Virus record (IMG/VR): IMGVR_UViG_3300008267_000608
Coordinates: 1-24,963 of that record
Source: a virus
Length of the DNA stretch: 24,963 bases
Direction: 5' to 3' (one strand)
Made by a program: the position numbers and the translations under genes. Positions 3,727-20,971 of this stretch are shown here, in pieces (the first letter of the stretch is position 1; each line of letters starts with the position of its first letter). The notes beneath the pieces were generated by a model. It was not told the origin of the DNA. It worked only from the letters and a program-made list of their open reading frames with translations, and made no database searches.

Positions 3727-4056
3727 ATGATTACAATTGGAGATAAGGCTCTTGAACATGTTATTAAATTAATGGCGAGTGAAGGTTTAACACCCGACAC
3801 TCATTTTTTACGCGTAGGGGTTAAAGGTGGTGGATGTAGTGGTTTATCATATGCCATGGATTTCGATGATGTAATAACCGATATGGATGAGGTCATCGAT
3901 TTAAATGTGATGAAGGTTGTGGTTGACAAAAAATCAGTATTGTATCTTTATGGTACACAATTAGAATATTCCGACGGTCTGAACGGAAAGGGGTTTCATT
4001 GGGTGAATCCTAACGCAAGTCGAACTTGTGGATGTGGAGAAAGTTTTTCTCTGTAA
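3727..4056 (+). CDS. A-type iron-sulfur cluster carrier (IscA/HesB/ErpA family)
   Basis: The full family length (109 aa) and all three cluster-binding cysteines are present: Cys37 in GGGCSGLSY, and Cys101 and Cys103 in RTCGCGESF at the C-terminus, matching Cys35, Cys99 and Cys101 of IscA. A-type carriers pass 2Fe-2S or 4Fe-4S clusters to apoproteins in the cytoplasm. HesB-like genes are known in other phages, for example cyanophages, where they are taken to support Fe-S enzymes during infection. No other isc or suf gene is nearby, so the host machinery must load it. A candidate client, a ferredoxin, is encoded at 15670. It is preceded by a TATTTAT motif. Confidence 0.93.
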   Translation: MITIGDKALEHVIKLMASEGLTPDTHFLRVGVKGGGCSGLSYAMDFDDVITDMDEVIDLNVMKVVVDKKSVLYLYGTQLEYSDGLNGKGFHWVNPNASRTCGCGESFSL

Positions 4057-8235: not shown

Positions 8236-9804
8236 ATGAAAAAGTCACTTATAGAAGAGTTAGAAAGAATACATACTCTAACATATGGTAAAAAGATAAT
8301 TAGTGAGGAGGGATTTTTAGATACTCTTACTAAAAGATTGAAATCGTTTTCCGATTCGAATAAAGTTGACGACCCAAAGAAGGCGGATTTTGTAGATAAT
8401 GACGTCACAAAATTCTTTGCCGACCTTAAATCTATCACCGAACCCGTGAGTCAACAGAGGTTAGGTTCAATGGAATACCAAAAAAACGTAGAATTAATTC
8501 AAATTGGGTTAATTTTATTGGGGTATGATTTACCAAAACATGGTGTTGACGGTCTATTTGGTCCTGAGACCGCAATTGCAGTTAGAAATTTTAAAAGGGA
8601 TAACAATATATTGTCTGAGGGGTCATCACCATATACGGGTGGTGGGAACATAAAAGTGGGTAGTAAGGTTAATAATGATATCGATACTACATTACAAAAT
8701 AAAATAGACACAATCGCATCTGAATATGGTAAACCTTTTGAGATAACCTCAGGTTACCGAGATCCTGAATATAATGAAAGAGTACATGGTGCGAAACAAT
8801 CACAACATTTACTACATAAAGCAGTTGACATAGTATTATCTAACAAGACTAAGGAAGATACATTACGTTTTGTTGAAATTGCATCTAAAAACGGTATTGG
8901 TGGTATTGGGGTATATTCTCCCGGTGTTATTCATATCGATGTTAGACCTAATAAAGTAGCGTGGGGTTCTGACCATAGTAGTGGTTCAATTCCTGGATGG
9001 GCAAGACAAACACTTAATGCCCACATGGCAAGTAAAATAGATAGTGGGTATGTTTCAGATTACGACCCAAGTATGGATAGTTCTTCATCAACTGGCGGAA
9101 CAAATGAAACATTTACACCTGAAATGGTTGTAACAATGGTAAATCAATTAGAATCAAAAGGAGTTACCAGTGAAGATTTAAAAACATTAATAGACCTTAA
9201 AAAGAAAGTGGGTACACTTGCTGGTGTTGCGGCAACTGATTTTGCTAAGATGAACAATATAATCATCGATAAGTTAGAGGGTGGATATTACCATCCTAAA
9301 ATGTTAAAGGACGGTAGAGTGAAGGATGGTAGATATGGTGGGTCTGGTGAGACTATGTTTGGTATGGATAGAAAAACAGGAGAATGGGAGTCAAGAAGTG
9401 AAGAAGGTAGACAATTCTTTAAAATATTAGATGACGCAGATGCTTCAAGTAAATGGCCATGGGGTTATATGGGTGGAGAATACGAAACCAAATTAAGGGA
9501 ATTATCTGCGGAAATGACAAAGAGAGAATATTTGACAAACACTAAAAATTATTTAAATCCCGATACTCAACAAATCGTTAACTCAAGTGCTAAATTAACA
9601 TTCAATTTTATATACGCAACATACAATGGACCAGGATGGTTTCAAAGGTTTGCTAAAGTAATTAATGGAGCTGTTAGTGAAGGTGTAACTGACCCTGAAG
9701 AATTAAACAGAATGTTCCTCGAAAGAAGAAAGGGAAGTCCGAACTCGTTAATTGCACAAGGGGGAAGAAAAATGGATAGTTTCATGGACACATCTATTGC
9801 TTAA
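8236..9804 (+). CDS. multidomain virion lysin: leader, PG-binding, M15 peptidase, lysozyme-like domain
   Basis: This 522-aa protein cuts peptidoglycan. Residues 1-25 form a short amphipathic leader (LIEELERIHTLTYG then IISEE) like those cleaved from phage virion proteins. Residues about 80-125 fit a PG_binding_1 repeat (IQIGLILLGY, DGLFGPET, AVRNFKRDN). Residues about 150-240 fit an M15 zinc peptidase: TSGYR (171-175), His191 and Asp198 six residues apart in QHLLHKAVDI, and His233 in IHIDVR as metal ligands. Residues about 335-510 look like a GH108-type muramidase with catalytic Glu348 in KLEGGYY and a G-G-x-G-E-T-x-F-G-M turn. No signal peptide is present. The leader suggests it is packaged and acts at entry; a lysis role remains possible. 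Confidence 0.85.
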   Translation: MKKSLIEELERIHTLTYGKKIISEEGFLDTLTKRLKSFSDSNKVDDPKKADFVDNDVTKFFADLKSITEPVSQQRLGSMEYQKNVELIQIGLILLGYDLPKHGVDGLFGPETAIAVRNFKRDNNILSEGSSPYTGGGNIKVGSKVNNDIDTTLQNKIDTIASEYGKPFEITSGYRDPEYNERVHGAKQSQHLLHKAVDIVLSNKTKEDTLRFVEIASKNGIGGIGVYSPGVIHIDVRPNKVAWGSDHSSGSIPGWARQTLNAHMASKIDSGYVSDYDPSMDSSSSTGGTNETFTPEMVVTMVNQLESKGVTSEDLKTLIDLKKKVGTLAGVAATDFAKMNNIIIDKLEGGYYHPKMLKDGRVKDGRYGGSGETMFGMDRKTGEWESRSEEGRQFFKILDDADASSKWPWGYMGGEYETKLRELSAEMTKREYLTNTKNYLNPDTQQIVNSSAKLTFNFIYATYNGPGWFQRFAKVINGAVSEGVTDPEELNRMFLERRKGSPNSLIAQGGRKMDSFMDTSIA

Positions 9805-9851: not shown

Positions 9852-10997
9852 ATGAAAGAAATATTAAAGAAAGATTTACTTAATCTCATCATCGAATCCC
9901 ACGCGGAGATGGGTGAGATGGCATATAAACCGAAAGGGACTCAGGACGACGGAGGTAGAATACGTAAACATAAACCAATCTTTAAAGATGGGTCTAACGG
10001 TGGTACTGACCAAGATCCCGATGGTTGGATTTTAAATCCAAATCGAATCGAGGGTGAAGAGAAGGCATATTTCTTTTTAGCGGGACAAGATTTAGAATCG
10101 TTCATTGAAGAAAATAGAGAATTTTTAGATGGTATTGCAAATAAATTAGGTCAGGATAGAGTATGTATCGTAGACGGTAATAGAACTAAATGTCAACCAA
10201 GAAGTTTAAAAGTAGGAACACAATACGTTCCATCTGGTAACAAAATGTCTGCCGAAACTAAAATCAAAAGATCATTAAATTCATTGGTTGAACAATATAT
10301 GGCTTCTCCTGAGATTTCGGAAAAATTATCGAGATTAAGTATTCCTGAAGTAAGAGCGAGAGATAGAAAACATATTGATAGATACAGTAAAATAAGTAAT
10401 AATAGAATTGAGTATGCAACCCATACTTTTAATTCATATGAGTCAGCTCAACAGTTCTTAAAATTTGTTACTTCGAGAATTACCGGAAAAGAAACACCGG
10501 AAGAATATAAATCATATCACTTAGCACGTCAGTTCAACAGAAACTACCAACGTTGGGAAGAAACAAGAAAAAACACAAAACAATATTACGGTAAGACTCC
10601 GGCATATATGTTAGACCAATATGGTTTCGATGAAGATAATTTAGATGTGACAGTTAGAATGGATTTCAAAATTAGTGGAGTTTTAACAAACGAAGAATAT
10701 CTTTGGACCGTTAAATTTATGACTAAGTTCGGTAGAAAATTAAAAGAAGATAGATACCTAAACGGAGGTCTAGATTTAGATAAGGAAATCACAATTAGTA
10801 AAAGAATACCTTTAGAGGGTGGCGAAGACTTCAACGAAGAACGTACAGTAATGGACAGTTTACCAATCAAATCTGGTTTGATTGAGGCGTTGGATGAATT
10901 GAAAGATAGAATAATGGCAATGAAACCAATTGAAACTTTAAAACTGGCAAACGTTCAGAAATTTGATGTTACAAAGAAAATCGGTTCTGACCTTTAA
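9852..10997 (+). CDS. putative virion protein with leader peptide, 381 aa
   Basis: The N-terminus, ILKKDLLNLIIESHAEMGEM, is a short amphipathic helix with IIE and HAE sites resembling prohead-protease targets of the (L/I)xE type. The rest is soluble and lysine/arginine-rich, with no signal peptide or membrane segment. A region at 45-150 contains RVCIVDGNRTKC, and the remainder is mixed alpha/beta without a motif I recognise. Position after the lysin, a late-type motif upstream and a strong terminator downstream suggest it ends a late operon and is packaged or structural. The specific role is unknown. Confidence 0.8.
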   Translation: MKEILKKDLLNLIIESHAEMGEMAYKPKGTQDDGGRIRKHKPIFKDGSNGGTDQDPDGWILNPNRIEGEEKAYFFLAGQDLESFIEENREFLDGIANKLGQDRVCIVDGNRTKCQPRSLKVGTQYVPSGNKMSAETKIKRSLNSLVEQYMASPEISEKLSRLSIPEVRARDRKHIDRYSKISNNRIEYATHTFNSYESAQQFLKFVTSRITGKETPEEYKSYHLARQFNRNYQRWEETRKNTKQYYGKTPAYMLDQYGFDEDNLDVTVRMDFKISGVLTNEEYLWTVKFMTKFGRKLKEDRYLNGGLDLDKEITISKRIPLEGGEDFNEERTVMDSLPIKSGLIEALDELKDRIMAMKPIETLKLANVQKFDVTKKIGSDL

Positions 10998-14229: not shown

Positions 14230-15174
14230 ATGGAAAAATTTAATAGATACAATCTACGATGGGATGACCATGGTAATAAAAGGTCTGAAGAAGAGTTAGA
14301 CCAAATGGAATTAGAATTTAATAATAAACAAAAAGAAAGACAAACAAAAATTATGAAAAGTATTTTAATCGGAGTGGCAGGATTTTTTACATTAACATTT
14401 TTATTCTTCTCTTGCGAGAGAATTGATGCAGGACATGTAGGTGTTAAAGTTAATCAGTATGGTGATAACAAAGGTGTGGATGATGTGGTTGCGGTTACGG
14501 GTATGGTATTCTATAACCCACTTACAACCGCCGTTTATGAGTTCCCAACGTTCATTCAACATAAAGAATATAAAGGTGAGAATTCATTCGTAGTAAACAG
14601 TAAAGATGGATCTGAATTTAGTGTGTCACCTATCATGAACTACTCAGTTCAAAGAGATAAAGTACCTGCTATTTTTAGTAAGTATCGTAGACCATTGGAA
14701 GATATCGAGGAAGGGTTCTTAAAGACTGCAGTGTACGATGCGTTCAGATTGGCAACTAACAAATACACCGCAGACGAGTTGATTTCAAATAGAGCAGTGT
14801 TTGAGGTGGAGGTTCGTAGATTGTTAGATGGACAACTATTAAAAGAGGGGTTCATTATTAATCAGTTCACATCTAATTTGATTTATCCTGAAACATTCAA
14901 GAAATCAATCGAGGCTAAGAACAATGCGGTTCAAGCGGCGTTGAGAGCTGAGAATGAGGTTAAGACCGCCGAGGCACAGGCCAAAATTAAAGTTGCAACA
15001 GCGGAAGGTAACGCCCAAGCTATGTTAACATCAGCAAAGGCTGAGGCCGAATCAAATAGAATGAAACAAGTAACATTGACCCCATTATTATTACAATTGG
15101 AATACATCAATAAATGGGATGGTAAGTTACCTGTTTATGGTGAGGTACCTAAGTTATTCAAAGGAATTAACTAG
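14230..15174 (+). CDS. SPFH/band-7 (prohibitin-like) membrane protein
   Basis: SPFH proteins form large ring assemblies on membranes and often regulate proteases or organise membrane domains. Here a hydrophobic segment (about 43-60) ends in FFSCE, followed by RIDAGHVGVKVNQYG, the usual start of the band-7 domain, then a coiled, alanine/glutamate-rich region (about 230-275, KTAEAQAKIKVATAEGNAQA) and LTPLLLQLEYINKWDGKLP near the end. ATG 14353 would make a lipoprotein-like precursor with Cys21 after the signal; ATG 14230 adds a 41-residue charged N-terminus. The family occurs in Bacteroidota and their phages. A terminator follows directly. Confidence 0.88.
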   Translation: MEKFNRYNLRWDDHGNKRSEEELDQMELEFNNKQKERQTKIMKSILIGVAGFFTLTFLFFSCERIDAGHVGVKVNQYGDNKGVDDVVAVTGMVFYNPLTTAVYEFPTFIQHKEYKGENSFVVNSKDGSEFSVSPIMNYSVQRDKVPAIFSKYRRPLEDIEEGFLKTAVYDAFRLATNKYTADELISNRAVFEVEVRRLLDGQLLKEGFIINQFTSNLIYPETFKKSIEAKNNAVQAALRAENEVKTAEAQAKIKVATAEGNAQAMLTSAKAEAESNRMKQVTLTPLLLQLEYINKWDGKLPVYGEVPKLFKGIN

Positions 15175-15367: not shown

Positions 15368-15574
15368 ATGTCAAAAATAGTTAAATTAAAACAGTCAGAT
15401 ATAGAAAAAATCGTTACAAATATTGTTAACGAACAAATGAATGAGGATTCAATTGACACCGAAACCACCGAAGGTGTTGAGGGAGATGGTGTTGTTTTAG
15501 GTGTTGCCAAAGGGGAAGATGGTAGATTTTACGTGATGAACGCAAAAACCGGTGAAATATTAGGTGTAAAATAA
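15368..15574 (+). CDS. small putative virion protein with leader peptide, 68 aa
   Basis: The first 23 residues include KIVKLKQSDIEKIVTNIVNE, an amphipathic helix of the type K-L-x-x-S-D-L/I-x-x-I-V-x-x-V/I-I/V-x-E that recurs at the start of many proteins in environmental phages and is probably removed by the prohead protease. The following part is acidic (NEDSIDTETTEG), and the last 30 residues may form a small beta domain (GVVLGVAKGEDGRFYVMNA). It is bracketed by a late-type motif and a terminator, forming a single-gene unit. The specific function is unknown. Confidence 0.75.
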   Translation: MSKIVKLKQSDIEKIVTNIVNEQMNEDSIDTETTEGVEGDGVVLGVAKGEDGRFYVMNAKTGEILGVK

Positions 15575-19228: not shown

Positions 19229-19462
19229 ATGAAAGTAATAGTATCAGAATCACAACTTAACAGAATCCTATTGGAATACTACGATGCAGATAAACTGTAC
19301 GATAGAGATTCGGTCGTTAATAGACTTAAGAAAGGACCAAAATACATGAGAGAATATATTAAAAATTTACCTCATATTAAATGTGCCGATTCTGAAGGTA
19401 ACGAAAGAATTTGTACAAAAGTACCTGAAGTTGTGTACCAATTTTTATTTGGAAATTTCTAA
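19229..19462 (+). CDS. small putative virion protein with leader peptide, 77 aa
   Basis: The start, MKVIVSESQLNRILLEYYDA, has the S-E-S-Q-L-x-R-I/L-L-x-E form of phage leader peptides, with LLE as a candidate prohead-protease site. The remainder is charged and includes CADSEGNERIC (about 51-61), two cysteines that could bind metal or form a disulfide, and it ends in an aromatic VYQFLFGNF. No family known. Position after a TATTTAT motif supports late expression. Confidence 0.75.
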   Translation: MKVIVSESQLNRILLEYYDADKLYDRDSVVNRLKKGPKYMREYIKNLPHIKCADSEGNERICTKVPEVVYQFLFGNF

Positions 19463-19465
19463 ATA

Positions 19466-19485
19466 TTTTTGGAATATTCCAAAAA
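19466..19485. promoter_or_regulatory. perfect 20-bp palindrome, putative operator
   Basis: Five T, GGAATATTCC and five A form a 20-base sequence identical to its reverse complement. It covers the -33 element of the promoter at 19468-19499, the place where a dimeric repressor would block RNA polymerase. Confidence 0.65.
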
Positions 19486-19499
19486 CATCCCTATATTTG
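19468..19499 (+). promoter_or_regulatory. Bacteroidota housekeeping-type promoter for the DnaA-like gene
   Basis: TTTG (19468-19471), a 20-base spacer and TATATTTG (19492-19499) match the consensus exactly. The box ends 17 bases before ATG 19517. The -33 element lies inside a perfect palindrome. Confidence 0.85.
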
Positions 19500-19916: not shown

Positions 19917-20462
19917 ATGAAAACATTAATAATACATCCAGAAGATAGTAGTACTTCATTCTTGGATATTGTTTATGCACCAATCCAAAACAAAACTGTA
20001 ATAACTGGTGGTGTAAGTAAAACAGAACTAATCGAGTTAATATTAGAACACGATAGAATCATGATGATGGGTCATGGCAGTCCAGGTGGATTATTCTCAG
20101 TTGGGAAATTCAAAAACGCCGGTGCATACATCATTGACCAATCGGTTGTTCCATATTTGAAAAGTAAAACCAACAATGTTTATATTTGGTGTAACGCCGA
20201 TAAATTTGTAGACATGTTTAAACTTAGAGGATTCTATTCTGGAATGTTCATCAGCGAAGTTGGTGAGGCATACTATTGTGGTTTACCTGGAACTGAACAG
20301 GAACAGGTGGACGAATCCAATTATGGTTTTTGTAATATAATTGCAAAATACATCAACGAACCAAAAGATTCAATTCATAAGAACGTTACTAGAGAGTATG
20401 GTTTGATTGCCGAAGGGAATCCTGTGGCATTATACAACAACAATAGATTATACAAATCATGA
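19917..20462 (+). CDS. putative caspase-like (clan CD) protein, conserved in phages
   Basis: The 181-aa product has a hydrophobic strand leading to MGHGSPGG (His53 in 51-58) and a second strand leading to YIWCNADKF (Cys92 in 89-97). A strand-H-G pair followed by a strand-Cys pair is the dyad layout of clan CD peptidases (caspases, gingipains, CHAT and C80 domains). The rest, including GMFISEVGEAYYC and VDESNYGFCNIIAKYINEP (about 135-153), matches my memory of an uncharacterised phage family. Protease activity is inference from the motifs only. It is coupled to the DnaA-like gene (1-base gap) and to the next gene (ATGA), so they share a promoter. Confidence 0.75.
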   Translation: MKTLIIHPEDSSTSFLDIVYAPIQNKTVITGGVSKTELIELILEHDRIMMMGHGSPGGLFSVGKFKNAGAYIIDQSVVPYLKSKTNNVYIWCNADKFVDMFKLRGFYSGMFISEVGEAYYCGLPGTEQEQVDESNYGFCNIIAKYINEPKDSIHKNVTREYGLIAEGNPVALYNNNRLYKS

Positions 20463-20971
20463 TATTAGAAAAACAATATAGAGTACAGTTGTTAGATGGT
20501 AGAGAAATAACAACACTTTACGAAACAAGACAAGAGGCTCTTAGAGCACACCGTGGTAACATCGCAAAACTAATTGAGGTGTTACCTAAAGTAACTAAAT
20601 CAAAGGTCATTCCATCTAGTGATGAATTGGCAATTGTTATTAGTGCAAGAAGTAATGATGATCTTGAAATATCAAAGGACTGTGGTTATGCGGTAATGTA
20701 TAATTGTCCTAAGAGAGATAAGATATATGAGGGTATGAGATATCTTGAAGTTTCAGATGAATTTGTTTTAGAGGCAACAATCACTAAATTAGAAAAGTAT
20801 GAAAAAGGTGCTCACCACCATTGGAAGGGTCCTGGATATAAACCAGACAAAACATGGAAATGGGCGTTATTTCATAAGGGTGGTAAAATTATTCCAAGGA
20901 AATTAGCGGAGCAGAGATTTAGTAATCCACTAAAAGGAACTCAAGGAGGAATTAGTTATATTAAAATCTAA
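20459..20971 (+). CDS. hypothetical protein, 170 aa
   Basis: This soluble protein starts with short strands (QYRVQLLDGREITTLYETRQ) and a helix. Residues about 55-110 contain ELAIVISARSNDDLEISKDC, and the C-terminal third is rich in His, Trp and Gly (GAHHHWKGPGYKPDKTWKWA, about 117-136). The H-H-H-W stretch could bind a metal. No family recognised. It starts within the stop of the caspase-like gene and is followed immediately by the 375-aa gene, suggesting a single transcript from the promoter at 19468. Confidence 0.75.
   Translation: MILEKQYRVQLLDGREITTLYETRQEALRAHRGNIAKLIEVLPKVTKSKVIPSSDELAIVISARSNDDLEISKDCGYAVMYNCPKRDKIYEGMRYLEVSDEFVLEATITKLEKYEKGAHHHWKGPGYKPDKTWKWALFHKGGKIIPRKLAEQRFSNPLKGTQGGISYIKI

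Follow-up and report, generated by a model that had tools for sequence, protein, structure and literature searches.

A predicted caspase-fold cysteine peptidase family in uncultivated large phages of Bacteroidota

A viral contig of 24,963 bases from IMG/VR (hereafter the window, i.e. the whole stretch of DNA that was analysed) carries a gene whose family probably has, judging from the modelled structure, the caspase fold and the chemistry of clan CD peptidases. As the model agrees with both the fold comparison and the conservation data, the caspase-like fold and the layout of the His/Cys dyad can be regarded as well supported at the level of a prediction. The best explanation of the data taken as a whole, held with a confidence that goes somewhat beyond an even chance, is that the gene encodes a host-derived cysteine peptidase that would be made early and would cut one or more host proteins. 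Bacterial defence and cell death employ caspase-fold proteases as executioners. If the explanation is true, a conserved and unannotated family, widespread in uncultivated Bacteroidota jumbo phages and apparently derived from their hosts, would show this chemistry at work on the side of the phage. The prediction is precise, as it concerns two residues of a 181 aa protein and does not require any obvious partner.

Table 1. Features of the window that are discussed in the text (positions are those of the window).
Feature	Position	Strand	Basis or remark
'KWCT' family protein, 360 aa	18120..19202	+	Often located near the caspase-fold gene, upstream or downstream of it
Candidate Bacteroidota-type promoter TTTGGAATATTCCAAAAACATCCCTATATTTG, of the form TTTG-N20-TATATTTG	19468..19499	+	Pattern search; precedes the DnaA-like gene
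Protein with a DnaA C-terminal (helix-turn-helix) domain, 132 aa	19517..19915	+	Pfam PF08299 (Bac_DnaA_C), 4.3e-19
Caspase-fold (clan CD-like) protein, 181 aa	19917..20462	+	Open reading frame and translation, AlphaFold2, fold matches, conservation
His53 codon	20073..20075	+	Within the caspase-fold gene
Cys92 codon	20190..20192	+	Within the caspase-fold gene
170 aa protein, function unassigned	20459..20971	+	Open reading frame list; start overlaps the caspase-fold stop codon (ATGA)

The open reading frame is a gene rather than a chance frame, because it has nearly full-length relatives in other viral contigs (50–81% identity) and because the comparison of the window copy with its nearest relatives gives dN/dS ratios of 0.05–0.14, i.e. 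purifying selection, although several of the dS values are near saturation. Its translation confirmed the frame and the two motifs reported by a first-pass annotation of the sequence, which had located His53 in MGHG and Cys92 in IWCNAD. A single base separates the stop codon of the upstream DnaA-like gene from the ATG of the caspase-fold gene. On the other side, the ATGA overlap suggests translational coupling of the 170 aa protein gene to the caspase-fold gene.

The AlphaFold2 model, computed from an input that included 37 relatives, has a pLDDT of 96.8. Its elements follow each other in the order strand (residues 3–6), helix, strand (26–29), helix, strand (47–52, ending at His53), hairpin, helix, strand (87–91, ending at Cys92), helix, strand (105–108), helices and a last strand (178–180), a succession that matches the caspase fold. 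In this predicted structure, strands 3 and 4 lead directly to His53 and Cys92, respectively, which is where the dyad is placed in clan CD; the model thus bears out the earlier proposal that each of the two residues lies at the end of a hydrophobic strand. When the matches in PDB were realigned, clan CD chains made up most of the top 40. The leading ones were a SAVED-CHAT protein (Z 11.4 on 156 residues, rmsd 3.1), the gingipain RgpB (Z 9.9), caspase-6 (Z 9.0) and separase (Z 9.0), compared with Z 8.3 or below for the best chains from outside the clan, which are flavodoxin-like. The C11 peptidase of Bacteroides gave a Z of 7.9. It takes this second aligner to separate the clan CD matches from the rest: plain Foldseek yielded no match below 1e-3, and its top ranks were occupied by flavodoxin-like and other folds with poor superpositions (rmsd 4.5–20), a ranking that was resolved by the realignment. 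A search of viral predicted structures with the model did not give any match below 1e-3 either.

The dyad is conserved almost perfectly. In a non-redundant set of 71 homologues, both viral and cellular, Cys92 is present in all and His53 in 70. Given these fold and conservation results, neither a wrong fold nor a loss of the dyad speaks against the caspase-like interpretation. The sole exception for His53 is a cellular homologue (L149, 8068–8613) in which the catalytic histidine is replaced by an arginine (GRG instead of GHG); from its sequence, this protein is possibly a pseudo-enzyme. Besides Cys92, eight positions are invariant in the 71 sequences (His7, Asp10, Thr13, Tyr20, Gly52, Gly54, Gly58 and Ala94). 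Three of them belong to an invariant HPxDxxT motif located directly after strand 1 that probably helps to shape the substrate pocket. In caspases, the region following strand 1 contributes to the lining of the S1 pocket; by analogy, the invariant Asp10 might select a basic residue in the substrate.

The protein belongs to an unannotated family, since it is claimed by none of Pfam, NCBIfam, PHROGs and PADLOC, and PDB sequence searches did not retrieve any family for it. It is a member of neither C14, CHAT, C25 nor C11: the Pfam profiles of Peptidase_C14 (PF00656), CHAT (PF12770), gingipain C25 and clostripain C11 matched neither the window protein nor any of 12 relatives. The Pfam profile of the S77 prohead protease did not match the window protein, nor did the PADLOC anti-phage defence models up to an E-value of 5; a weak Gelsolin match (E 0.008, below the cut-off) was taken as chance. 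A profile-profile comparison with the Bacteroidota Peptidase_C14 sequences gave a weak alignment (score 27.8, E 0.0029, compared with 23.9 for the reversed control and 20.4 for the best of 100 column shuffles), which pairs His53 with the histidine of the SGHG motif and Cys92 with the catalytic cysteine. The same comparison with 27 Bacteroidota CHAT sequences produced no meaningful alignment. The first-pass annotation regarded the family as familiar from other phages, which is contradicted by the absence of any significant PHROGs match and by the finding of a single match among 50,697 deposited phage records. This match is carried by a 6-kb faecal scaffold that encodes a PP2C protein and other bacterial-looking proteins. 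Literature searches did not retrieve any described phage member of the family; in a survey, metacaspase operons of Clostridium appeared to be phage-related (PMC3501461).

The closest predicted folds are those of the CHAT peptidases (the SAVED-CHAT filament 8tl0 and the TPR-CHAT of Craspase), which are bacterial, are linked to conflict systems and show the same placement of the histidine and cysteine. In Bacteroidota, CHAT domains are mostly found within frames of ~850–1400 aa, whereas the phage protein stands alone with its 181 aa. Caspases, metacaspases and orthocaspases (MEROPS C14) share the fold and, by the weak profile alignment, both catalytic residues, but the phage protein is devoid of fused domains and carries IWCxA in place of the typical DACxSG motif. 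Gingipain R (C25) and the clostripain-like C11 peptidases, also present in Bacteroidota, are alike in fold as well; they are secreted enzymes that mature from larger precursors, unlike the phage protein, which is short and devoid of any strongly hydrophobic stretch.

Relatives in viral contigs amounted to 12 loci by a single-sequence scan and to 163 by a profile scan, of which 80 sequences were retrieved. Genome contigs provided 29 further relatives, nearly all from Bacteroidota, so that the family is known essentially from uncultivated phages and from genomes of this phylum. It is rare in one order-level sample of cellular genomes: a match was detected in 8 of 295, and the gene is split by a stop codon in one of the eight. 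Two relatives were binned as archaeal; one of them is carried by a T4-like phage contig (L115), and the sequence of the other (L116) falls within a gut Bacteroidales clade. In L115, the caspase-fold domain follows an N-terminal extension of ~215 aa, the frame being cut by the contig end (5350–6288); a fusion to a KWCT-type N-terminal domain was considered, but BLASTP (E 0.85) lent it no support. Two copies of the gene are present in one jumbo phage. In a maximum-likelihood tree, the 41 viral sequences form one clade (support 96/91) nested among 30 cellular sequences, a topology that suggests a single capture of the gene from Bacteroidota by their large phages. The nesting is no proof of capture, because the tree has no placed root and includes long cellular branches, and because prophages may have escaped detection in some of the bins.

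The expression signals are of host type, as first proposed. The known form of Bacteroidota promoters is TTTG-N17-22-TANNTTTG; the window contains seven such sites for 1.94 expected, a number reached in none of 100 shuffles. Related phages (for example L001, L004, L005, L007 and L029) have a site in the equivalent position before their DnaA-like gene. More generally, 12 of the 41 non-redundant viral loci have such a promoter ending no more than 80 bases before the start of the caspase-fold gene, where the local density of sites predicts about one. Several of these promoters stop just 5 bases short of the ATG, which hints at messages with little or no leader. In two jumbo phage records of ~287 kb (L226 and L227), the promoters are concentrated in one block of ~20–30 kb made of small genes, many of which have their own Bacteroidota-type promoter 5–35 bases before the start codon, and each block contains a caspase-fold gene. 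Promoter-dense blocks of small genes usually carry early, host-directed genes. In at least two phages, the gene thus looks, from its sequence context, as if it lay in an early, host-takeover region.

Combined with the data on origin, the following model can be drawn for the host-derived peptidase. The gene would have been captured once from Bacteroidota by their large phages. The RNA polymerase of the host would read it from a promoter of Bacteroidota type, probably at an early stage of infection, and the product would be a compact cysteine peptidase made of a single caspase-fold domain, with Cys92 acting as the nucleophile and His53 as the general base. The enzyme would then cut a single host protein or a small number of them, the likeliest effect being to block a defence or to redirect the host. 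A counter-defence role is possible and fits both the promoter-dense location and the bacterial origin. The analysis turned up neither a substrate nor a defence partner.

A narrower form of this explanation, which we hold only tentatively, is that the peptidase was captured from a bacterial conflict locus and is made early as a counter-defence protease cutting a component of host immunity. It is suggested by the surroundings of the cellular relatives, which lie near genes encoding ADP-ribosylglycohydrolases, vWA proteins and AAA ATPases and near known defence genes. AAA ATPases, vWA proteins, a small metalloprotease-like protein and the ADP-ribosylglycohydrolase are recurrent neighbours in the cellular genomes. 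Of 20 genomes tested, eight (L103, L107, L108, L113, L116, L117, L120 and L149) encode an ADP-ribosylglycohydrolase no more than 15 kb away from the caspase-fold gene, for 0–2 copies per genome and a chance of ~1% per genome, a proportion somewhat inflated, as some of the genomes were picked after the linkage had been noticed. This linkage may mark an undescribed conflict locus related to ADP-ribose. A NADAR gene is also present nearby in L108. The metalloprotease-like neighbour is a recurrent protein of ~178–230 aa (L099, L101, L104, L110 and L153) with a putative zinc-protease motif and a weak match to DUF2268, and its gene directly adjoins the caspase-fold gene in four of these five loci. 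Several cellular neighbours show raw matches to PADLOC models (such as AbiE, a GajB-like helicase and restriction enzymes). Several cellular relatives, by their vWA, AAA ATPase or other conflict-type neighbours, recall the MoxR-vWA and caspase conflict systems of bacteria (PMC7159879); by contrast, the phage gene stands alone.

The phage neighbours raise an alternative, judged rather doubtful: the protease could be regulated and act on a phage partner, for example the DnaA-like protein or, above all, the 360 aa KWCT protein, the genes forming a self-contained regulatory module. In 23 of the 41 non-redundant loci, a KWCT gene lies upstream or downstream of the caspase-fold gene at a distance of no more than 4 kb, even though each large phage genome has only 1–4 copies, and in most of these genomes the best copy adjoins the caspase-fold gene. 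The KWCT model (pLDDT 70) has a confident helical N-terminal part and a C-terminal quarter of very low confidence, and protease substrates are often disordered. Its fold matches are weak and GNAT-like (Z 6.2 at best); the family has an invariant TKWCT motif and matches phrog_17056 (5.4e-12). A model for such a module is provided by the orthocaspase MaOC1, which cleaves an antitoxin (PMC7935541). But neither neighbour is universal. No KWCT gene is found within 4 kb in 18 of 41 loci, the best copy of the L053 phage lies ~40 kb away, and common descent of the phage genomes accounts for part of the linkage. The DnaA-like gene is found at most 80 bases upstream in 11 loci and downstream in four; as it is near in only 15 of 41 loci, it would not be part of the function of the family. 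Its co-transcription with the caspase-fold gene, assumed in the first-pass annotation, is therefore likely in the subclade of the window but is not general. The earlier interpretation thus holds for the clan CD fold, the dyad layout and the host-type expression, but not for a general DnaA-like partner. The gene of the 170 aa protein is directly downstream in 4 of the 41 loci.

A role as a maturation protease trimming capsid or internal-head proteins during virion assembly is unlikely, because 8 of 14 related large phage records (including six of the seven that exceed 240 kb) already encode a separate T4-type prohead protease S77, detected with Pfam, and partial records may hide more. This enzyme, although also phage-encoded and present in many of the same phages, differs in fold class and catalytic type and is specified by a separate gene far from the caspase-fold gene. 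The host-type promoters and the occurrence of the caspase-fold gene in a block of small promoter-bearing genes also argue against such a role. It is nevertheless suggested by four window proteins that start with leaders resembling the T4 capsid-targeting sequences (8236–8290, 9852–9900, 15368–15440 and 19229–19280), and in 13 of 41 loci the caspase-fold gene has a leader-bearing neighbour no more than 4 kb away. Short examples of such leaders are MSKIVKLKQSDIEKIVTNIVNEQ and MKVIVSESQLNRILLE, and others occur in L115 (1992–3900), one of them being MKFKQFLNE.

The protein might also be catalytically idle, serving as a decoy or inhibitor that binds regulators or substrates of the caspase-like or CHAT effectors of the host. 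Inactive homologues of host effectors can serve phages as decoys, and the members of the family (170–240 aa) have no fused sensor domain. This is very improbable, as the dyad, needless for a decoy, is kept almost perfectly over very diverged sequences. That the protein is a different alpha/beta enzyme (flavodoxin-like or nucleotide-binding), its histidine and cysteine having a non-peptidase role, is scarcely credible: flavodoxin-like chains do appear among the top rows of plain Foldseek, but CHAT and gingipain score clearly above them with matches that span 151–156 residues over the full length, and the two residues occupy precisely the places of the clan CD dyad.

By inspection, the window also appears to encode an IscA-like iron-sulphur carrier (3727–4056) and an SPFH/prohibitin-like membrane protein (14230–15174), both of them thus phage-encoded.
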